Translations under genes and position numbers: made by a program
Source of the DNA: a virus
Direction: 5' to 3' (one strand)
Virus record (IMG/VR): IMGVR_UViG_3300022213_000012
Location: 1 to 44,072 of that record
DNA: 44,072 bases
Shown: piece after piece, positions 6,398 through 44,072 of the stretch
Position numbering within the stretch: the stretch's first letter is position 1
How the letters are laid out: each line of letters starts with the position of its first letter
Notes under the pieces: model-generated
Database searches by the model: none
Told to the model about the DNA's origin: nothing
What the model saw: the letters and a program-made list of their open reading frames with translations, nothing else

Positions 6398-9300
6398 ATG
6401 TCAGACCGAAAAACAAAATATTATGAGTTTTTGAAGAACAAAGTCCAGTTGACCACCGAAGGCGGATTGCAGCCTGTTGAAATGCACCCGTCGCTATACC
6501 CACACCAGCGGGATATTGTGACCTGGGCATTGCAGCGGGGAAAGGCGTTGATTGCGGCGAAGTTCGGGTTGGGCAAGTGCCACGGGGCAGGAACAAAAAT
6601 CCTAATGGCCGATGGCACGATCAAAAATGTCGAGGATGTGCAAATCGGGGAACAGTTAATGGGTGACGATGGAACACCTCGCAACGTTCTTTCTCTGGCT
6701 AGTGGTCGCGAGCAGATGTATCGAATCACCCTGAAAAATGGCGACAGTTACACATGCAACGAATCGCATATACTGAGCCTGAAAATTTCTAATCCTTATA
6801 ATGGCTACAGTATGGGTGAAATTGTTAACATGTCCTTGTCGGACTATCTTCAATACCCTCGCTTCGCTAAACAAAATTGTTTCAAGCATTACAAGGTGGC
6901 TGTCGATTTTCTACCGCAAAGCGTGCCAATGGACCCTTACCTGTATGGCACATGGTTGGGTGATGGACACTGTAGGGGTCTCTCGTGGACTATCAACGAC
7001 CAAGATGTTGAAATCGTAGAGGCAATTTACGGCTTTGCTGACACAAATAGATTGAAAGTCAAGGCGCGGCAGGCGCGCGGATGTACCACATATGACATTT
7101 CTCGCCTGAATGGTCGTAGTGACACAAGCCCTTTGTGTGACGAATTTTATTTTATCAAGGATGGTGGTAAGACCGGCGAGAAGCGCATTGACAATCGTTA
7201 TTTGAAGAATAGTCGAGATGTGCGCCTACGTCTCTTGGCCGGATTGCTTGATACCGATGGCTATCTTGTCGATAAGTGCTATGAGATAGCAACCAAGTGG
7301 GAAGGGCTGCGCGATGATATTTTGTTCCTGTGCAGATCCCTAGGTTTCTCGGTATGTCATGCGCCCAAAGTTGTCAATGGCGCGACTTATTACCGGATTT
7401 GGATTAGCGGCCATACCCATCTCATCCCTTGCCGCACCCGCAAAAAAGCCAGTGAGCGATGTCAGATCAAAAATCCTCTTGTGTACGGGTTTGCAGTAGA
7501 GGCTCTGGGTGAAGGCGATTACTATGGGTTTGAGATTGACGGCAATCATCTTTATCTATTGGGCGATTTTACAGTTACACACAATACCAGAATGCAGATC
7601 GAACTCTTGCGCCACGTCAACGCACGTACAGGGCGCAAGGTGCTGGTGATTTGCCCACTCGGTGTGAAGCATCAGTTCATCCATGAGGATGGGCCGTCGA
7701 TGGGTGTAGATTTCGCCTACGTGGGCAGCGATGCCGATGCCGAGAGCGCCGATACGCCGTTTCTGATTACCAACTACGAGCGGGTGAGAGACGGGCAGAT
7801 TAGCGAGGCGTTTTTACAGGCAGAGATAGCCGGCGTCTGCCTCGATGAGGGCGCCATCCTGGGCAACCTGGGCACAAAAACTCAACAGGAGTTTAGCCGC
7901 ATCCTGAGCGCCATCCCGTACCGGTGGGTAGCCACAGCAACACCTGCCCCCAACGACTATCGCCAACTAATCTATTTTTCCGACTTCCTAAACGTGATGG
8001 ACGCAGGCCAGGCGCTCACCCGTTTTTTTGGTCGCAACCCCGACAATGCCGGCGATCTTCAACTGATGCCACACATGGAGCGTGACTTCTGGTTCTGGAT
8101 AGCATCGTGGTGCTTGTTCGTCGACGTGCCGTCTGACCTGGGCTACGATGACACCGGCTATGTCATGCCAGAGCTAAGAATCCATTTCCACCGGCTCGCA
8201 GCGGATCACCTGAAAGCGCAAGATCTGGCAAACCAGTTTGGTCAGCATTATCTGTTTGCCGATACCGCAGCCGGTGTGACCCAGGCTATCAAAGAAAAAC
8301 GAAACAGCCTGGAGTCGCGCATTGCCGAAGCTGCCGCTATTGTTGCCGCCTCACCGGATGATCATTTCGTCATTTGGCACGACCTGGAAGACGAGCGCAA
8401 AGCCATCTGCAAGGCCATTCCAGGCGCACAGGCGGTCTACGGCTCGCAGGAAGACGACGAGAACGAGCGCATGGTTCTGGATTTTACACACGGCAACATC
8501 CAGATCCTTGCGGCCAAACCACAGATGTTTGGCGCGGGGGCGAACTTCCAGTATCACTGCCACAAGGCAATTTACGTTGGCATCGGCTTTAAATTCCGTG
8601 ATTTCATCCAGAGCCTGCACCGCCTGCAACGCTACGGCCAGGAGCATCCTGTTGATGTGCATATCATCCATACCGATGCTGAGGATCATGTCGTATCTGT
8701 GCTGATGAACAAATGGAAACAGCATGATGAGATGGTTGCCACCATGCGCAGCATCATCAAGGGGCATGGATTGACCAACGAGTCGCTCTCGTCTGCGCTC
8801 CAACGGTCTCTCGGTATAGAGCGACAGATAGAGCGTGGTCAATGGTTCACGGCGGTCAATAACGACTGTGTGTTGGAAATGATGAGCATGGCCGACAACT
8901 CCATTGACGAAATCGTGACCAGTATCCCGTTCGGCAATCACTACGAATACGTTGCCAGTCTCAACGACTTCGGCCACAACCAGACAGATGGCGACTTCTG
9001 GCAACAGATGGACTACCTCATCCCTGAGTTATTGCGCGTGTTGAAACCTGGCCGCATGGCCTGTATCCACGTCAAAGACCGCCTGCTATACGGCCATCAG
9101 ACACCGCACGGCATGATGGAAGTAGACTATTTCACGCACGATTGCGCAAGAGCATTCCGCAAGCATGGCTTTATAGCCTATGGCGAAATCTTCATCCCCA
9201 CTGACGTTGTCCGCGAGAATAATTCAACAAACCGGCTCGGCTGGTCTGAGTGCTGCAAGGATGGCTCAAAAATGGGCGTCGGTCTCAGTGAGAAAGTCCT

Positions 9301-10012
9301 TTTATTCCGCAAGCCACAGAGCGATAAAACCCGCTCCTACGCGGATGAGCCGGTGTGCAAGAACAAGGCTGAATACAGCCGGGGTCGCTGGCAGGTGGAC
9401 GCACATAGCCTCTGGCGGAGCAACGGCAAAGGCATTGCCGACGTTGCCCATGTCACGCCAGCTGATGACCCAGCACTGCTGACCGGTATGGACGGTAGCC
9501 AGGTATACAACTGGTATCGTGACTGGAGCAAAGAGCAGCCCTACGACTATCACCAGCACGTCGCCTTCAATGAGGCGATGGGGAACCGGCTCCCGGCCAA
9601 ATTCATGCTGATGCCACCGCAGGCGCCCGATGACTATGAGGAGTTTGTTTGGACGGATGTGCTATTCATGCGCACCCTCAACATGAGCCAGGCGCGCCGG
9701 CGTCAGGAGAAACACATTTGCCCCCTGCCGCTCGATATTGTTGAGCGGCTGATAGTCCGCTACAGCAACCCCGGCGAGCTAATACTCGATCCCTTCAGCG
9801 GCCTGCACACTGTCCCGTACATGGCCGTTAAACTGAAGCGTAGCGGCTACGGCTGCGAGTTAAACCCAGTTTACTGGCAGGCTGGCGTGAAATATTGCGA
9901 ACAGGCAGAGGCAGAGCGCAGCACGCCGATGCTCTTTGCGATGGCGGCTGAAAACGATGGTTGCGCCGACTGGGTAGCCTCAGAGATGGCCGCAGAAACG
10001 GCGGCAGCATGA
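6398..10012 (+). CDS. SNF2-type helicase fused to DNA methyltransferase, with intein
   Basis: A 1204-residue precursor. The helicase part has motif I GLGK-T interrupted by an intein (residues 61-396), DEGA (483-486) in the place of motif II, ATATP (512-516) as motif III and QSLHRLQRYGQ (738-748) as motif VI. A methyltransferase follows: TSIPFG (841-846, motif IV, where TSPPY is usual), then ILDPFSGLHT (motif I, from about 1129) and GCELNP. The order IV before I is that of beta-class N4-cytosine/N6-adenine enzymes. Splicing would leave an 868-residue enzyme. It may modify phage DNA while moving along it, protecting against restriction, but the target is unknown. The SIPF variant of the catalytic motif is worth noting. 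Confidence 0.9.
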   Translation: MSDRKTKYYEFLKNKVQLTTEGGLQPVEMHPSLYPHQRDIVTWALQRGKALIAAKFGLGKCHGAGTKILMADGTIKNVEDVQIGEQLMGDDGTPRNVLSLASGREQMYRITLKNGDSYTCNESHILSLKISNPYNGYSMGEIVNMSLSDYLQYPRFAKQNCFKHYKVAVDFLPQSVPMDPYLYGTWLGDGHCRGLSWTINDQDVEIVEAIYGFADTNRLKVKARQARGCTTYDISRLNGRSDTSPLCDEFYFIKDGGKTGEKRIDNRYLKNSRDVRLRLLAGLLDTDGYLVDKCYEIATKWEGLRDDILFLCRSLGFSVCHAPKVVNGATYYRIWISGHTHLIPCRTRKKASERCQIKNPLVYGFAVEALGEGDYYGFEIDGNHLYLLGDFTVTHNTRMQIELLRHVNARTGRKVLVICPLGVKHQFIHEDGPSMGVDFAYVGSDADAESADTPFLITNYERVRDGQISEAFLQAEIAGVCLDEGAILGNLGTKTQQEFSRILSAIPYRWVATATPAPNDYRQLIYFSDFLNVMDAGQALTRFFGRNPDNAGDLQLMPHMERDFWFWIASWCLFVDVPSDLGYDDTGYVMPELRIHFHRLAADHLKAQDLANQFGQHYLFADTAAGVTQAIKEKRNSLESRIAEAAAIVAASPDDHFVIWHDLEDERKAICKAIPGAQAVYGSQEDDENERMVLDFTHGNIQILAAKPQMFGAGANFQYHCHKAIYVGIGFKFRDFIQSLHRLQRYGQEHPVDVHIIHTDAEDHVVSVLMNKWKQHDEMVATMRSIIKGHGLTNESLSSALQRSLGIERQIERGQWFTAVNNDCVLEMMSMADNSIDEIVTSIPFGNHYEYVASLNDFGHNQTDGDFWQQMDYLIPELLRVLKPGRMACIHVKDRLLYGHQTPHGMMEVDYFTHDCARAFRKHGFIAYGEIFIPTDVVRENNSTNRLGWSECCKDGSKMGVGLSEKVLLFRKPQSDKTRSYADEPVCKNKAEYSRGRWQVDAHSLWRSNGKGIADVAHVTPADDPALLTGMDGSQVYNWYRDWSKEQPYDYHQHVAFNEAMGNRLPAKFMLMPPQAPDDYEEFVWTDVLFMRTLNMSQARRRQEKHICPLPLDIVERLIVRYSNPGELILDPFSGLHTVPYMAVKLKRSGYGCELNPVYWQAGVKYCEQAEAERSTPMLFAMAAENDGCADWVASEMAAETAAA
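6578..7585 (+). mobile_element. Intein with LAGLIDADG homing endonuclease
   Basis: The intein spans 336 residues. It begins at Cys 61 (CHGAGTKILMADGTIKNVED, block A), ends in GDFTVTHN with His-Asn at 395-396, and Thr is the first residue of the C-extein. Two dodecapeptides, YGTWLGDGH (about 183) and LLAGLLDTDGY (about 279), mark a DOD homing endonuclease. It sits exactly in the Walker A motif after GLGK, a favoured site because the DNA there is conserved. Codons are more AT-rich than in the flanking exteins (for example 6790-6900), which fits recent transfer. All splicing residues are present, so splicing should be active. Confidence 0.93.
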
Positions 10013-10269
10013 ATCCACGGGCTACCCCTCAGCCGCCGCCGATCCGCCTGGTTGGAATTGACGGTACCGTCGTCCCCGACCGATGGGCGCAAGGCTGCGG
10101 CAGATGCACATTCGGCCTGGTTCATCCGCCGGATATAGGCCATAGGCCGCTATACTCTGCCCGGCGCATTCAGTTTGAGCGGGGAGAGTTGCAGTTGTGC
10201 GAGTGCAGAGCCGGCGCGGCGTATGCCATCCTGTTGCTTAAATACTCAGAGCAGGAGGCGCAACGATGA
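10009..10269 (+). CDS. Small cysteine-rich protein
   Basis: Eighty-six residues; ATG 10009 overlaps the methyltransferase stop as ATGA. CGRC in the middle and CEC near the end could bind one zinc ion. The N-terminus is Pro-rich and the C-terminus helical (AAYAILLLKYSEQEAQ). Its last four bases overlap the rusA start. The family is not recognised. Coupling to rusA and the methyltransferase suggests a role in DNA metabolism. Confidence 0.7.
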   Translation: MNPRATPQPPPIRLVGIDGTVVPDRWAQGCGRCTFGLVHPPDIGHRPLYSARRIQFERGELQLCECRAGAAYAILLLKYSEQEAQR

Positions 10270-15708: not shown

Positions 15709-15863
15709 CTACAGTGGAACGAAACAGCGTTCCACTGTAGGTACAAAACCAAATACGGCCAGGAAAGAAGCTGGTTGCGTATTCGGCTCATGCATTATGG
15801 CATGAGATCGAAATTGGACGCAAGTTTTGGCCCTGGTCGTATAGAGACCGGGGTTTTTGTTTT
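15709..15863 (+). ncRNA. Structured RNA of four hairpins ending in a terminator
   Basis: Four stem-loops follow one another. H1: 13 bp, CTACAGTGGAACG (15709-15721) with 15728-15740. H2: AATACG/CGTATT plus GCCAG/CTGGT with a two-base bulge (15752-15783). H3: CTCATGC/GCATGAG (15787-15806). H4: CCCTGGTC/GACCGGGG (15831-15853), followed by TTTTTGTTTT. H4 is a classical terminator. The unit may be a small RNA processed from or started near the 15343 promoter, or an attenuating leader of the FtsK-like gene. No known RNA family is recognised. Confidence 0.6.
15831..15863 (+). terminator. Rho-independent terminator before the FtsK-like gene
   Basis: CCCTGGTC (15831-15838) pairs with GACCGGGG (15846-15853) around a 7-base loop; TTTTTGTTTT follows. 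It should end the short transcript from the 15343 promoter. The FtsK-like gene begins 14 bases later, so read-through or an internal promoter must supply it. Confidence 0.85.
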
Positions 15864-15876
15864 GGAGCGAGACGGG

Positions 15877-17394
15877 ATGATCCAGAAATTACAGGAATGG
15901 GCGCGACGGCTAATTGATGAACGCCAACAAAATGACACAGGTCGTTTTGATGCTCTAGCTCCCTCTGGTTGGCAGCCGGTGAATCGACCTGTGCCACAAG
16001 CGCGGCGCGTGCCGATGCTACGCTCGCAGGCGCAACGACCGGCCCCACAGTCGCAGCGCAGCCGACCGACTGCAACCAATCCGCTACTTAACCAAATCGT
16101 GACTGAAGCGCGGGCGATCCATGAGGAATTGCGGCGCCTGAATATCGACGCAGCGGTAGACCCGAAACGCTGCACCCCTGGCGGCAATCAGTTGGCATTT
16201 TACGGCATTGCCCTACAGGGCAAAACCAAAGCCGCGGATGTTGCCAGGGTTTTGCCTGAATTGTCCCGCGCCATCTCCCAGGCGCGACGGACGCGGGTAA
16301 CGCTGCGCTTTGACGAAATCACCCTGCGCCTAGAGGCTGAACATCCGCAGAAGCAGCCGCTCCACTGGACGCCGCGCCGTATGGAGATGACCCAGCCGCA
16401 CGCCATGACGTTGGGCATATCGCACCACAACGGCGCGCAACTGGTCACAGCGCGTTTTGACGATGCGCCTCACATTCTAGTAGCGGGTGAGACCGGCAGC
16501 GGTAAATCTGTTCTGCTGCGCAATCTGGTTACGTCCCTGGCCTACGCCACTTCACCCGACGATCTGCGCATCGCTATCATCGATTTGAAAAATGAGGACA
16601 TGATACCCTTTGCGAAGCTACCTCACATTGTGGCGTTCGCTGGCGACCGTGGCGCGGCGGTGGACGTAATCCAGATGATTCAGGCAGAGAAACAGGAGCG
16701 CATTGCAGACCCTAATCGCAAGCCGTATCGGTTATTGTTACTGGTCGATGAGCTTGCCCAGCTTGTACCGGTTAAGGGCGCGCTGGATAATTTGGGCGAC
16801 ATCATGAGTGTTGGTCGCAGCAAATCCATCAACGTCATTGCGGCAACACAATCGCCAACAGAGGATGGTGGCATGGGTTCTATGATGAAAGCCAACATTC
16901 CGCTACGTCTGATTGGTGCGGTGTCTGCGGGGCAATCCTACACAGCTACACGGCGCAAGAACGCGCAAGCCGACATGCTGCCGGGCAAGGGCGCATTCTT
17001 GTACATTGCCGGGGCGGAGTTGTATCGATTCCAGACGTTCATGCTGGACAGTGGCGACGTTGCCCGCGCCGTGAGAGAGATCCGGTCACGCTGGCGTCTT
17101 GCACCAGTTGCACCGGTGCAAAGACGGCCAGAGATTTCTCCAGAGGTAGCGCAGCTTGCACCACCCCTTGCACCGGTGCTGCACCACCCTGCACCGGTGC
17201 AAGCTGCACCAGTTGCACCACCTTTTCCGCTTGACGAAAAGCGACCGCTAACGATGGCTGAGGCGGCGCTGGTCCAGGCGTTGGCAGAAGGCGGTGAGAG
17301 TCTGAATGCCATTTGCCACTATGTCTATGGCGCAAAATCGTCACGTTATATGCGCTGGATCAACGAGGCTATCGGAGGTAAAGATGCACAGTGA
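15877..17394 (+). CDS. FtsK/SpoIIIE-type DNA translocase
   Basis: The 505-residue protein starts at ATG 15877, after the terminator. No membrane domain precedes the motor. The alpha/beta motor has Walker A GETGSGKSV, Walker B LLLLVDELAQL and VIAATQSP as the sensor region. An Ala/Pro-rich linker (LAPVAPV repeats) precedes a C-terminal winged-helix-like domain (LTMAEAALVQALAEGGESLN onward) like the FtsK gamma domain, which reads DNA sequence. It may pump double-stranded DNA for segregation or transfer, as in actinobacterial TraB proteins. The genes after it encode membrane proteins, which could form its pore or anchor. The next start overlaps it by 11 bases. Confidence 0.88.
   Translation: MIQKLQEWARRLIDERQQNDTGRFDALAPSGWQPVNRPVPQARRVPMLRSQAQRPAPQSQRSRPTATNPLLNQIVTEARAIHEELRRLNIDAAVDPKRCTPGGNQLAFYGIALQGKTKAADVARVLPELSRAISQARRTRVTLRFDEITLRLEAEHPQKQPLHWTPRRMEMTQPHAMTLGISHHNGAQLVTARFDDAPHILVAGETGSGKSVLLRNLVTSLAYATSPDDLRIAIIDLKNEDMIPFAKLPHIVAFAGDRGAAVDVIQMIQAEKQERIADPNRKPYRLLLLVDELAQLVPVKGALDNLGDIMSVGRSKSINVIAATQSPTEDGGMGSMMKANIPLRLIGAVSAGQSYTATRRKNAQADMLPGKGAFLYIAGAELYRFQTFMLDSGDVARAVREIRSRWRLAPVAPVQRRPEISPEVAQLAPPLAPVLHHPAPVQAAPVAPPFPLDEKRPLTMAEAALVQALAEGGESLNAICHYVYGAKSSRYMRWINEAIGGKDAQ
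17099..17215. repeat. Cluster of TGCACCGGTGCA palindromes in the FtsK-like gene
   Basis: TTGCACCGGTGCAA at 17108-17121 is a 14-bp perfect palindrome; near copies are at 17168-17179 and 17190-17202. Further half-sites (TTGCACC, CTGCACC) fill the stretch. It encodes the Ala/Pro linker, so protein repeats explain part of it, but the palindromic form is not required by the code. Confidence 0.75.
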
Positions 17395-35732: not shown

Positions 35733-37226
35733 CTACCACGCAAACGCTCCGCTCAAATCGTCCTGGTCGCCCATCCGCAGGAGCCGGTTATATGCTCCCG
35801 CAGTGGCGTCAGCCTGGTCTCGGTAGAATCCATTAGGCACGGAACACATCTCCTCGATATACTCGCCGTTCCATGCGCCACGCACCAGCCGCACGTTACC
35901 CGCCTCAGCCTGCGCTGCAAACGGCTCCAACCGTACATCTTTGTCACCCGTAGCTCGGTCGCCTGCCACCGGATGCGCAGCAAGCATCAGGATAGCGGCG
36001 TCAATCGCGTCAACCCCGCTGGAACCCGGCTCTTGCTCAATGTAAATATGCACCTGGTTGCGGTAGCGCGTCGCATCGGTGACAGCCGTTTGTTTGACCG
36101 TGACATTGCGCTGATGCGGAGGCCATTTACCTACGACCGCATCCTCAATATAGACGATACCCTCAGTCGAGCGTGACATCAGGATGCCCGCTGTCCGCTT
36201 CGCCTGTTTCGACTCCGATGCGGCGAAGTCCCAGTAGCGCACCCGTTCGGCCAGCGCCGGCGGCGCTTCGACAATCGGGAAGAAGTGACGCCTGAAACGG
36301 TTGCCCTCCGGCAACCTCGGCGCCGCCTGATATTCAGCCGCCCACACCATCGAACCCACATCGGTGCGTATCTGATCTAGCGCCGCTGCGCTGTATCGAC
36401 CTGGTGCAAGCGCATCCCCTGCCGCTCTACCCAATGGATCTGGCTCACCAACTGGCAAACCGCAGCGCCGATTATTTGCGTCACGCGCCTCTTGCGGCTC
36501 TGCCAACGCCGGTAAGCGCAATACGTGCCATTGCCCCGACTGCTCTTGCAGCAAGCGCCCGGCCAGGTCATCCTCATGCCAGCGCGTCATGATCAAGACG
36601 ATTGCGCCATTCTCCCAGATGCGAGTGCGGAAAGTGCCTCTGAACCAGCCCCACACCCGTTCCCGCATCGTTGGCGATTGCGCCTCCTCCCAGTTCTCAT
36701 GAGGATCATCAATGATGCCCAGGCCAGCGCCGTGTCCTGTCACCGGCCCCCCCACACCGACCGACAACATTCCGCCTCGATGATTGAGCAGTTGCCAGCG
36801 CTGTACGGACCGGCTACCAGGCTCTACCTCAACCGACTCAAGCGGCCCGGCATACAAATCGCCAAAGAGCGCCCGATATTCCTGACTCTCCACAATGTTA
36901 CGCGCCTGGCGTCCTTTCGACTCTGCCAGCGTTGCGCCATAGCTCGACAAAATGACCGGCGAGTCGGGGTGAATGCCCAGCCAGTAGGCCGGAAGCCGCA
37001 CGCTCACCAGTTCGCTTTTGCCGTGCTGTGGTGGCGCAAAGATCATCAGGCGCTTGAGTTCGCCATTGACTACCCGGTCGAGCGTACTGGCAACAAGCGC
37101 ATGGAACGGGTCCACCCTATACTGCGGGTAGGTATATTGCGTAAAGTCGATTAGGCCCCGCCGTGCCTGCCTACGCCTTAGTAGCTCTTGCGCTGCCGCT
37201 GCGGGCGATATTTGCAAGCTCTTCAT
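35733..37226 (-). CDS. terL: Terminase large subunit
   Basis: The 497-residue protein has the ATPase P-loop FAPPQHGKSELVSVRLPAYW (Walker A, about 63-72), a Walker B segment LGIIDDPHENWEEAQ, and an RNase H-like nuclease domain starting at RVRYWDFAASES (first Asp, about 337). Ending with GSSGVDAIDAAILMLAAHPV is unusual but in the nuclease part. It starts inside the small subunit gene (56-base overlap). It cuts and pumps DNA into heads. Whether it uses cos or pac cannot be seen. Confidence 0.93.
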   Translation of the reverse strand: MKSLQISPAAAAQELLRRRQARRGLIDFTQYTYPQYRVDPFHALVASTLDRVVNGELKRLMIFAPPQHGKSELVSVRLPAYWLGIHPDSPVILSSYGATLAESKGRQARNIVESQEYRALFGDLYAGPLESVEVEPGSRSVQRWQLLNHRGGMLSVGVGGPVTGHGAGLGIIDDPHENWEEAQSPTMRERVWGWFRGTFRTRIWENGAIVLIMTRWHEDDLAGRLLQEQSGQWHVLRLPALAEPQEARDANNRRCGLPVGEPDPLGRAAGDALAPGRYSAAALDQIRTDVGSMVWAAEYQAAPRLPEGNRFRRHFFPIVEAPPALAERVRYWDFAASESKQAKRTAGILMSRSTEGIVYIEDAVVGKWPPHQRNVTVKQTAVTDATRYRNQVHIYIEQEPGSSGVDAIDAAILMLAAHPVAGDRATGDKDVRLEPFAAQAEAGNVRLVRGAWNGEYIEEMCSVPNGFYRDQADATAGAYNRLLRMGDQDDLSGAFAW

Positions 37227-37815
37227 CCGTTAGCCCTGTAACGTCCCGGTGTTCAATCGGTTGCCCATTCGCGCCGGTCAACTCGTGACGCTGTTTGCGC
37301 CCGCCGGTCTCAGCGGCCAGGTCTGCCATCGCAGCGCGATACTCAGCCAAGATAGCGGCGTTGAAACGCACCAGGTCAACCCGTTCGGCATCCTCACCAG
37401 AGCCGATTTGTTTCACATCTGCAATCCACACATTCGGCAGGCTCTCGCCGCCTTCGCCCATTTTGTATATTTGTTCCTCCAACAGCCTAGCCAGGCGCTT
37501 GAGCCTGGTCACGCGCTCATAATCGAGCGCCAGCCCATGCTCCATGACCTGGCGGCGCTTCTCGTTTTTGGCGGCTTCGGCTTCGGCGTCGTAGGCGGAT
37601 GCTCGCACCTGCCAGGCGTGAGCGGCTGACCAACTCGTCAAGGTGTCAATTGAGCTTGTCGGCGCTGCATTTCGCCGCAATTTGCTATATTTTTTCAGGA
37701 GCTTTGTCAGCGACCGCCCCGGCCCCATACGCAAGTAATCGTTACACGCCTGTATAGCCCGATCACTTTCGCCCTTCTGTCGCTCCCCGGCCAACAGAGA
37801 GGGCCGCTTCGCCAT
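37171..37815 (-). CDS. terS: Terminase small subunit
   Basis: The 214-residue protein starts at ATG 37815. Its N-terminus holds an HTH-like arrangement (IQACNDYLRMGPGRSLTKLL then SIDTLTSWSAAHAWQVRASA), used to recognise packaging sites. A coiled-coil core and a polar tail with TGLTDEELANIARSGS follow. It is coupled to terL by overlap, and its start is three bases from the stop of the small gene before it. Confidence 0.85.
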   Translation of the reverse strand: MAKRPSLLAGERQKGESDRAIQACNDYLRMGPGRSLTKLLKKYSKLRRNAAPTSSIDTLTSWSAAHAWQVRASAYDAEAEAAKNEKRRQVMEHGLALDYERVTRLKRLARLLEEQIYKMGEGGESLPNVWIADVKQIGSGEDAERVDLVRFNAAILAEYRAAMADLAAETGGRKQRHELTGANGQPIEHRDVTGLTDEELANIARSGSARATKA

Positions 37816-37909: not shown

Positions 37910-38530
37910 TCATAGCTCACCTTCCAACTGCGCTGCCAGTTGCTTGATTAGCTGCATTGCGCCTTGCAACTCAGCGACGGCTGTTTCAAGCGCCACGATC
38001 CTCTCCAGTGGCAATTTGTCGCCATTGTCCACAGGCGGCTTGTCGTCGCCGTTGGGCGGAACCGACCGCTTTTGGGCAAAAACTACATAGTAGCTGTGAT
38101 GCCCCCAACTATTGCCGATACTACCATCACCGGCTCGCTCATCTGGCATGTTGGTCGTAAAGCCGTGCAGGATGTCACTGACGCGCTTGCCATCTTTTTC
38201 TATCCAGATGGACACACGCATCAGTTTGTTACCAATGGCGATGTTGGCGACTGGTTCAGTCGGTGGCTTCTCAAAGCGAGCTGGGGGCGCTATCTCTCCA
38301 GGTTGGCGCTCTTCCCAGTCCCAGGCCAGACGCCAAGAGGAATGAGCCGCTACCAGTTTGCCCATTGCGTCAAGCACATCCACATAAATGTTATGCTTGC
38401 CGCGGTTTTCATCGGGCGTCAGGTGGTGGATCATCGTAGCGCCGTAAAGCGCCAATGAGTCAATCTCCACTGCTACCCAACTCACATCGTTACGCATCCG
38501 ATATGTATAGCCGTCTCTACCTGGAAACAT
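37910..38530 (-). CDS. Accessory protein with coiled-coil tail, under a Fur-like box
   Basis: The 206-residue product starts at ATG 38530, behind GGAGGGCGC; the frame reaches 38560, but that would include the palindrome. Residues 1-150 are beta-rich (SWVAVEIDSLALYGATMIHH, ANIAIGNKLMRVSIWIEKDG, SYYVVFAQ), probably a beta-sandwich. A Pro/Asp linker and a coiled coil (LERIVALETAVAELQGAMQL onward) end it. No family is recognised. It has its own promoter and a palindrome like an iron-regulator site. Could be a secreted-like fibre or a cytoplasmic protein; there is no signal peptide. Confidence 0.7.
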   Translation of the reverse strand: MFPGRDGYTYRMRNDVSWVAVEIDSLALYGATMIHHLTPDENRGKHNIYVDVLDAMGKLVAAHSSWRLAWDWEERQPGEIAPPARFEKPPTEPVANIAIGNKLMRVSIWIEKDGKRVSDILHGFTTNMPDERAGDGSIGNSWGHHSYYVVFAQKRSVPPNGDDKPPVDNGDKLPLERIVALETAVAELQGAMQLIKQLAAQLEGEL

Positions 38531-38544
38531 GCGCCCTCCATAAT

Positions 38545-38559
38545 TGAGAATAATTCTCA
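38545..38559. promoter_or_regulatory. Fur-box-like palindrome
   Basis: TGAGAATAATTCTCA is a perfect 7-1-7 inverted repeat. Bacterial Fur boxes follow TGATAAT-N-ATTATCA, so six of seven bases in each arm agree (G for T). It lies just after the predicted start of transcription and before the gene at 38530, so binding would repress that gene. Control by host Fur or a phage protein is inference. Confidence 0.55.
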
Positions 38560-38568
38560 TTTACATTG

Positions 38569-38596
38569 ATGATAGCACGAATCAACAAATTGTCAA
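38569..38596 (-). promoter_or_regulatory. Leftward promoter of the accessory gene at 38530
   Basis: On the minus strand TTGACA (38596-38591), a 16-base spacer and TATCAT (38574-38569), preceded by TGC (extended -10). Transcription would start near 38562, right before the palindrome. Confidence 0.65.
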
Positions 38597-38599
38597 GTG

Positions 38600-38764
38600 T
38601 CAGCAGCGAACAAGCCACAAGTAGATCAGGGCGACAATGATGGCCGCTGCAAACGAGAGCAGACTCAGCATCAGATAGACAACTCGCACCAAACGGCTAA
38701 ACCGTTTGGTCAAAATGATACTGCGGTAGTTCAGTTCACGTATTGCCCAAATCGACTCACTCAT
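38600..38764 (-). CDS. 54-residue membrane protein
   Basis: ATG 38764 stands behind CGAGGTGAAA. The basic N-terminus (about residues 1-27, with LTKRFSRLVR) is followed by one helix (YLMLSLLSFAAAIIVALIYL) and a short WLVRC end, so the helix is probably oriented with the N-terminus inside. It lies 11 bases after the three-helix membrane protein. A holin or a partner of the CHAT protein are the two obvious ideas; neither is proven. Confidence 0.7.
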   Translation of the reverse strand: MSESIWAIRELNYRSIILTKRFSRLVRVVYLMLSLLSFAAAIIVALIYLWLVRC

Positions 38765-38775
38765 TTTCACCTCGA

Positions 38776-39051
38776 TTAATAATCCACATTGCGCCGGTGA
38801 TACTGGTACAGATAGTACGCACTGGCGCCCAAGACGAATAGCCGCGTAAAAATAACAGACCAGCGCCGCAGATCATCCTCCTGCGCGGCTAACGTGACTG
38901 CCGCGTAGTTGAGCGCTGTACAGGCAAAGAAAACTACCTGCGCCCATACCAGCGAAGTACGGCGCTTGTATTTCCAAAACAAGAGCGCCTGCCCGGAAAT
39001 GAGAAAAGAGAGAGAGGCTATACTGGCAAGCAGCAAAATAAGCAGACTCAT
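38776..39051 (-). CDS. Three-helix membrane protein coupled to the CHAT gene
   Basis: The 91-residue product starts at ATG 39051, behind AGAGGAGGGGT, overlapping the CHAT stop as ATGA. Three helices: about 2-26 (LLILLLASIASLSFLISGQA), 33-56 (VWAQVVFFACTALNYAAVTL), 64-86 (WSVIFTRLFVLGASAYYLYQ). Tight coupling to the protease gene suggests a partner: a membrane target, an anchor or a pore. Its size also fits a holin of the three-helix class. Confidence 0.75.
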   Translation of the reverse strand: MSLLILLLASIASLSFLISGQALLFWKYKRRTSLVWAQVVFFACTALNYAAVTLAAQEDDLRRWSVIFTRLFVLGASAYYLYQYHRRNVDY

Positions 39052-39782
39052 ACCCCTCCTCTGAAGGCAAGCAAGTAGAGGCCAGTCATCATCAAAGAGG
39101 AAATGAACACGATGAATGACAGCACCATGTTAATTTTTCGTGGATCATCCGGGCGCGGCTTGTCTATCGCCCGCTCCAACTGCTCCAAACGCTGCTTGAG
39201 CAATGCTAACTCAGACCGCAGTTCATACAGCGCTTTGGTCAGTTCGCCCATTTCCGCACTCAAGCGCCCTACAACGTCAGAATCACTCACAGATCGCTTC
39301 CCTCTGGCGGCCAACAGCACATACGTCCTATTTTCGCCAGGTCTAGAACGCTCATACGCTATTTCAATTTTGCCCGTGTCTGCCAACGCTCTGGCGAGTA
39401 GCGCTCCGGTCTGGGACGCCTCCCGATCCTGCACGTCAGTCACAGTGCAAATGACGGCTGCGCCGGATTCCTGCTGAATCATCTGCGCAGCCTGGATGCT
39501 AGAGCAGGTATTTAGGACGACCAGGCGGACCCGGCCACGCACCATGCTCGTCAGCAGCGAAGCAGATAGGATGCCATCGCTCAGAGCGACGCCTTCGTTG
39601 CTGCCATGCGTTGCCAGCCACAGTACGTCATAGCGACCGTCTACCATCGCGCGCAGCATGTCAGTATGTCGCACCTGGCCGAGCAGCGGATGCACAGTCA
39701 AGCCACTGCTGATGATGCTCTGTACCTCGTCGATCTGCGACGGCAGATCTGCCTGTGTTGGAGCGACTAACAAAACCTTCAT
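39048..39782 (-). CDS. Membrane-anchored CHAT-type (caspase-like) protease
   Basis: The 244-residue protein is read from ATG 39782 with GCAGGG upstream. It has the CHAT/caspase-like core: strand and His in YDVLWLATHGSNEGVALSDG (His 59), then VRLVVLNTCSSIQAAQMIQQ (Cys 93), the expected His-Cys pair, followed by AVICTVTDVQDREASQTGAL and YVLLAARG. A coiled coil (about 170-207) and one C-terminal membrane helix (218-240) come next. There is no signal peptide, so the protease faces the cytoplasm. CHAT proteases act in bacterial defence and cell-death systems. In a phage it may exclude other phages or act in lysis. Confidence 0.85.
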   Translation of the reverse strand: MKVLLVAPTQADLPSQIDEVQSIISSGLTVHPLLGQVRHTDMLRAMVDGRYDVLWLATHGSNEGVALSDGILSASLLTSMVRGRVRLVVLNTCSSIQAAQMIQQESGAAVICTVTDVQDREASQTGALLARALADTGKIEIAYERSRPGENRTYVLLAARGKRSVSDSDVVGRLSAEMGELTKALYELRSELALLKQRLEQLERAIDKPRPDDPRKINMVLSFIVFISSLMMTGLYLLAFRGGV

Positions 39783-39894
39783 ATTCCCTGCGAAGGATTT
39801 ACAATCCTGCAACGACTATCTATATATGCGCCCTGCGCTGTGCCTAGTTGGCCGCGGCTGGTGCGGCGCAAGGCGTCACTTCGATAAATAAAAA

Positions 39895-39926
39895 CGGCCA
39901 TGCTCACCTTCGGGTGAGCATGGCCG
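39895..39926 (-). terminator. Rho-independent terminator of the early leftward operon
   Basis: CGGCCATGCTCACC (39895-39908) and its complement (39913-39926) form a 14-bp stem around a four-base loop. On the minus strand TTTTTATTTATC follows the stem. It separates early-left genes from the CHAT block, which must have its own promoter in 39783-39894. A TATATA stretch at about 39811-39816 could be its -10, but no -35 is clear. Confidence 0.9.
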
Positions 39927-39954
39927 CCTGCTCTCACTATTCTTCTATCTACCA

Positions 39955-43847: not shown

Positions 43848-44062
43848 TTAGCCGTAGCCGTAGCCGGAGCCGTCGCCTGAGCCGTCGCCGTCGCCGTCGC
43901 CGTCGCCGGAGTCGTAGCCGTAGCCGTAGCCGCAGCCGGAGTCGTCGCCGGAGCCGTCGCCGTCGCCGTCGCCGGAGCCTGAGCCGTCGCCGTCGCCGTA
44001 GCCGTAGCCGTAGCCGTAGCCGCAGCCGGAGCCGGAGCCGGAGCCGGAGCCGTCGCCGTCAA
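43848..44062. repeat. GGCNNC hexamer array, right-end part
   Basis: The same hexamer array as at the left end, over 210 bases on this side. On the minus strand it lies upstream of the SSB-like gene, in its leader. The frame from TTG at 44069 would give a 73-residue Gly-X peptide with Asp, Ser, Tyr and Cys; another frame gives Thr/Ala/Pro repeats. No ribosome site precedes either. It may affect RNA or DNA structure, or be a hot spot of slippage. Confidence 0.85.
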
Positions 44063-44072
44063 GCGTCAAAAT

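Follow-up and report, generated by a model that had tools for sequence, protein, structure and literature searches.

A phage-borne, membrane-anchored CHAT-fold protein and its possible part in lysis or cell killing

CHAT proteases are known as bacterial weapons for dying before a phage multiplies, as parts of anti-phage suicide systems. The presence of such a gene in a phage genome raises the question of what use the phage itself makes of it. A sequence-only reading of the locus had described a CHAT protease followed by small membrane proteins, and had proposed that they act together as a two- or three-gene effector for superinfection exclusion, anti-defense, or lysis. Here, the protein, its relatives, and its genomic surroundings were analyzed computationally.

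Genome and layout of the CHAT locus

The window, by which we mean the whole stretch of DNA analyzed, is IMG/VR virus record IMGVR_UViG_3300022213_000012 and contains 44,072 bases. Its last 126 bases (43947-44072) are an exact repeat of bases 50-175. The genome is therefore likely to be near-complete and either circular or terminally redundant, with the caveat that the repeat sits in a simple-sequence region where several frames are open. The gene content includes a tyrosine integrase, Cro/C1-type regulators, replication genes, the terminase small and large subunits (TerS and TerL), and capsid and tail genes. Because the closest cellular relatives of the terminase are found in Anaerolineae MAGs, the host probably belongs to the class Anaerolineae (Chloroflexota). 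Elsewhere in the genome, a large helicase/methyltransferase ORF (6398-10012) carries an apparent intein directly behind its Walker A motif, and the early strand encodes an FtsK/SpoIIIE-like ATPase (15775-17394), which is unusual in a tailed phage, followed by small membrane proteins.

On the minus strand, a dCTP deaminase, a LuxR-type HTH protein, and a short ORF precede a terminator, the CHAT gene, and the gene of a 91-aa membrane protein. These are followed by a 54-aa one-helix protein, a promoter-like site, a 216-aa protein, TerS, and TerL. The features of this region are as follows.

39892..39929, minus strand: intrinsic terminator separating the CHAT unit from the early genes, perfect 14-bp arms
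39048..39782, minus strand: CHAT-fold cysteine protease of 244 aa, read from the ATG at 39782 to the stop at 39048
38776..39051, minus strand: small multi-helix membrane protein of 91 aa, its gene overlapping that of the protease by ATGA and having its own RBS
38600..38764, minus strand: one-helix membrane protein, 54 aa (ATG at 38764, in-frame GTG also at 38770)
38569..38596, minus strand: sigma70-like promoter candidate, TTGACA-16-TATCAT (consensus match only: 11/12, TG before the -10)
37910..38560, minus strand: 216-aa protein encoded after the CHAT unit and before TerS, probable C-terminal coiled coil
37171..37815, minus strand: TerS (PHROG 6299, E 2e-14)
35733..37226, minus strand: TerL (PHROG 38, E 1.4e-92)

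The unit had been placed between early and late genes, behind a 14-bp terminator, and both statements hold: dCTP deaminase and the LuxR-type HTH protein lie on one side and the TerS/TerL operon on the other. The terminator arms (39895-39908 and 39913-39926) are perfect, enclose a 4-nucleotide loop, and have a T-run behind them. The fold reaches -33.3 kcal/mol (z = -7.5), and none of 200 shuffled sequences was equally stable. As for the further claim that the genes form a unit of their own, the terminator agrees with it, but no promoter of the unit's own was found. The best promoter-like site (38596-38569) sits downstream of the CHAT unit, before the packaging operon. The 216-aa protein had no family match or phage relative in Pfam, PHROG, and phage-relative searches; a similar layout is seen in a protein of the related phage L014 (L014:13238-13945), where it is sited after TerL.

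In the 91-aa protein, two membrane helices are clear and a third is weaker, and KYKRR comes behind helix 1. Its earlier description as a three-helix protein overlapping the protease gene by ATGA is accurate for the overlap, which comes with an RBS, and fair, if uncertain, for the number of helices. Judged only from hydropathy and by eye, the topology is suggestive of a class I holin-like protein (N-out/C-in). No Pfam, PHROG, PADLOC, or NCBIfam family and no holin profile matched it. The gene that follows encodes one helix, as had been noted, whether read from 38764 or from 38770; the ATG at 38764, preceded by GAGG, is the better start than the GTG. This 54-aa protein had no family match in Pfam, PHROG, or PADLOC.

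The CHAT protein and its phage relatives

The ORF and residue numbering originally given for the protease (His59, Cys93) proved exact. The protein consists of a CHAT core (residues 1-158), in which His59 lies within WLATHG and Cys93 within VVLNTCSS, a coiled coil (~168-207), and a C-terminal membrane helix (~220-238). It matches Pfam PF12770 (CHAT) at 31 bits (E 2.2e-7), above the curated cut-off of 24. Structure prediction of the protease alone, which had been suggested as a check, yielded a caspase-like fold. The AlphaFold model, built from a 5-sequence alignment, has a mean pLDDT of 73, with a confident alpha/beta core (residues 1-150 mostly 80-90 per block), a long helix at 168-207 at low confidence, and a membrane helix at 214-243. 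In the core, His59 ends strand 53-60 and Cys93 ends strand 87-93.

In a Foldseek search of the PDB, the closest structure to this model was SAVED-CHAT 8tl0 (E 3.8e-7), with weaker matches to caspase-6/7. PDB 8tl0 is a CHAT protease linked to type III CRISPR (PMC11417357). In a phmmer search of the PDB, the window protease alone gave only chance matches, and a family profile was needed: the phage CHAT profile reached 8tl0 with an E value of 2.5e-12, and the phage His and Cys motifs aligned with its HG and LNAC motifs. PADLOC returned only a weak match to BovA (16.9 bits, E 6e-4), across the CHAT core. Sensor, NTPase, and signal-binding domains are missing from the window protein and from its immediate neighborhood. 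Membrane segment 220-238 has a mean hydropathy of 2.16 and a C-terminal tail of 6 residues. Because the helix ends in such a short tail, the catalytic domain should face the cytoplasm, in line with the coiled coil, C-terminal helix, and orientation proposed earlier.

Other phages, prophages, and phage-like contigs yielded seven homologues that are 21-35% identical to the window protein: L002/L004, L009, L020 (G003), L047/L172 (G017), G267, G138, and L221. Two of these, G267 and G138, are Anaerolineae MAG contigs that carry phage genes. The relatives came from terminase searches, whole-record searches, and a DNA motif scan. A tblastn search with three family members found nothing in 50,697 phage genomes, and in tblastn against plasmids the matches to CHAT were all weak and came from haloarchaea, cyanobacteria, and Streptomyces. 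Scans of viral contigs with the window protease, its partner, and a fused protein described below added no further relatives. The gene is patchy, being absent from the close relatives L014, L016, L023, and L028.

An alignment of the eight members has only ten invariant columns, two of which are His59 and Cys93, and the C-terminal membrane helix is kept in all eight. Both residues are present in each of the 48 CHAT sequences of the tree set, the fused protein included. Thus, a caspase fold is found and the His-Cys pair is invariant in 8/8 members, though their neighbors differ. At the Pfam cut-off of 24 bits, L002 (34.2) and L221 (37.7) are recognized as CHAT, L009 and L172 fall just under, and L020 is unmatched. 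In a tree with cellular CHAT proteins, in which deep support is moderate, most phage members group together and G138 lies outside. The window protein groups with L002 and L009, which also have the terminase type of the window.

The phage profile detects CHAT proteins in about 30% of the 396 genomes of the class that were sampled. Most of the cellular proteins sampled are soluble; several domains are common among them, and many have an AANP-type N-terminus. They were rejected as members of the phage family.

A ninth protein (L249; G366:C45:117060-118046) carries, fused to the front of its CHAT domain, three membrane helices and a coiled coil. It is encoded in a prophage-like region of a 238-kb Anaerolineae MAG contig, with a dCTP deaminase on one side and a TerL on the other, both assigned to the PHROGs of their window counterparts. 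Its anchor sits at the opposite end of the protein, and membrane attachment is therefore retained even though the anchor has switched ends. Separately, L214:9793-10285 holds a fragmentary CHAT copy (9793-10140) without the Cys half, with a separate coiled-coil membrane ORF behind it, and was excluded from the counts. Taken together, the data support the window protein as a genuine CHAT-fold protein with invariant His and Cys, membrane-anchored and phage-borne; its proteolytic activity is predicted from sequence.

Membrane partners and genome position

A small membrane protein follows CHAT with an overlap or no gap in four of the eight members (window, G267, G017, and L221). Against a background of 9%, the rate of such small membrane genes in the window itself, the chance of four in eight is P ~0.004; without the window, three in seven has a chance of 0.02. 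In three members (L004, L009, and G138), the TerS gene comes directly after CHAT, with no membrane partner, and in L020 the next gene encodes an 85-aa protein with no clear helix. BLAST detected no sequence similarity among the partners, and the 54-aa third gene has no counterpart among the CHAT phages compared. Since only half of the members have a partner and the partners have no detectable homology, CHAT plus a membrane protein is a recurrent association, not a conserved operon. The search for the same trio in other phages therefore speaks against a fixed two- or three-gene set.

CHAT occupies two kinds of position, just upstream of TerS in 4/8 members (window, with one gene between, L002/L004, L009, and G138) and just after the tail-fiber genes in 4/8 (G017, G003, G267, and L221). 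Because G138 has a different terminase type, the pre-TerS position is either kept or reached twice. In CHAT-less phages with the TerL type of the window, the pre-terminase slot contains an Amidase_2 endolysin, a 3TM protein, and a coiled-coil membrane protein (L008); a 3TM protein, a GH25/M23 endolysin, and a coiled-coil membrane protein (L031); a stretch resembling the amidase and 3TM protein of L008 (L033); or a Phage_holin_4_1 match near the cut-off (L028). In L221, a tail fiber, a coiled-coil protein, CHAT-TM, three small TM proteins, and an M23 endolysin follow each other on one strand.

The TerS/TerL DNA of L014 is 79% identical to that of L004, and the exact CHAT slot of L004 is filled in L014 by an unrelated protein (L014:8983-9369) of 128 aa, a coiled coil with a C-terminal membrane helix. 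This protein has only a weak 'hemolysin' PHROG match; it also weakly resembles an unknown PHROG, which in turn weakly matches the tail of the window CHAT protein.

No Pfam-recognizable endolysin was found elsewhere in the window. M23 and Amidase_2 profiles recognized no endolysin in the window, L004, L009, or G017, nor in most CHAT-less relatives. The absence from the window proves little, because CHAT-less phages often have no recognizable endolysin either. The idea that CHAT replaces the endolysin was dropped on the same grounds, and L221 has both.

Candidate functions and comparison with known systems

We tentatively read CHAT as an accessory protease of a lysis or cell-killing module in a temperate-type Anaerolineae phage, placed at the inner face of the membrane. 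This reading is based on the conserved catalytic dyad, the membrane anchor, the preference for two lysis-gene positions, and the coupling or fusion to membrane proteins. Location proves none of the three roles first offered for the locus and favors lysis or cell killing somewhat over exclusion and anti-defense. The coiled coil would suspend the catalytic domain at the inner face of the cytoplasmic membrane and cluster the protease, which may turn active late in infection or on membrane perturbation. The protease would then cut a membrane-associated substrate. The simplest candidate is the coupled holin-like protein, and a host membrane protein is another; in either case, cleavage would open or kill the cell. 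The model is suggested because analogous caspase-like proteases cut and activate bacterial gasdermins. In its boldest form, CHAT would cleave and thereby open the coupled holin-like protein, a protease-gated lysis or killing that would be a viral counterpart of caspase-gasdermin pyroptosis and may have given rise to, or been derived from, bacterial CHAT suicide modules; drawn by analogy, this form is unlikely.

Several points count against the lysis reading. Accessory 'moron' genes are also common beside lysis genes, and to our knowledge CHAT-type proteases are known in defense and not in phage lysis. The reading is further weakened because CHAT is patchy, is swapped for another gene in L014, has no partner in L004, L009, and G138, and, where partners exist, these show no detectable homology.

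A close rival is a prophage-borne superinfection-exclusion or abortive-infection effector, almost as probable given the defense roles of CHAT enzymes elsewhere and the patchiness of the gene. Such a protein, with its membrane partner, would be inactive in the lysogen, and the entry or growth of a competing phage would lead to cleavage of a target, with the cell killed or blocked. Both type III-E CRISPR (Craspase) and SAVED-CHAT systems use CHAT proteases as effectors (PMC9729208, PMC11417357), and caspase-like proteases, CHAT included, are paired with bacterial gasdermins (PMC9612521). The strong terminator ahead of the CHAT unit, the integrase of the window, and the fused relative on its 238-kb contig fit such an effector, and the patchy presence and the gene swap in the closest relative are typical of accessory cargo. 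However, the window protein has no attached or adjacent sensing or signal-binding domain or NTPase, unlike most CHAT defense systems, its PADLOC match is weak, and no promoter of its own was found. In L221, moreover, CHAT and an endolysin share one operon.

Anti-defense appears improbable. Here, the targets of the phage protease would be immune proteins of the host at the membrane, such as CHAT or gasdermin-like suicide systems, which it would cleave or compete with. The abundance of CHAT genes in sampled Anaerolineae genomes would supply targets for it, and pathogen-encoded anti-gasdermins have been predicted (PMC9612521). The conserved catalytic dyad speaks against a plain decoy, and genes of this kind are usually early, whereas CHAT adjoins packaging or tail genes. 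A virion or assembly protease that processes a structural component late is very improbable: the gene lies beside TerS or tail-fiber genes, with which co-expression is expected, but neither the C-terminal membrane anchor nor the membrane partners suit such an enzyme, and the gene is missing from close relatives of the same terminase type.

Relatives of the phage CHAT protein exist in viruses but seem uncharacterized, as the BFVD structure library contains a similar unnamed 264-aa viral protein (A0A1P8DJ94). No characterized phage-encoded CHAT protease was found in the open-access literature searched; subscription papers or preprints could describe one.

With phage lysis cassettes, the locus shares genome position, 3TM and coiled-coil membrane proteins, and, in L221, an M23 endolysin neighbor, but we know of no lysis cassette in which a cytoplasm-facing caspase-like protease has been described. 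XhlA of the XhlA/XhlB pair of Bacillus prophage PBSX is likewise a coiled coil with a C-terminal membrane helix, encoded beside a small holin; it differs from the phage protease in having no CHAT head. Membership in an XhlA-like family was rejected, as neither the C-terminal part of the protease nor the slot proteins of L014 and L031 matched the XhlA profile.

Among defense proteases, SAVED-CHAT (8tl0) has the CHAT fold and the same His and Cys motifs. The phage-encoded protein differs in having a coiled coil and membrane anchor in place of the SAVED domain and CRISPR link. TPR-CHAT/Csx29 of Craspase also combines a CHAT domain with a His-Cys dyad, H585/C627 (PMC9729208), whereas the phage protein is a free-standing 244-aa membrane protein without TPR or Cas7-11. 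Bacterial gasdermin-protease operons similarly place a caspase-like protease gene beside that of a membrane-active partner; endolysin-like genes are sometimes near, and the operons have been compared with holin-endolysin pairs (PMC9612521). They differ from the phage locus in their carrier and in the partner, which in the window is a 91-aa multi-helix protein with no Pfam match above cut-off, gasdermin included.

The recurrence in phages of a membrane-tied CHAT protein with a conserved dyad, its gene mostly placed where lysis genes are carried, suggests that phages have turned this killing chemistry to their own use. If the coupled membrane protein is the substrate, the locus would mirror, in a virus, caspase-gasdermin cell death, and CHAT with its membrane partner offers a compact two-gene system that is testable in a laboratory strain.
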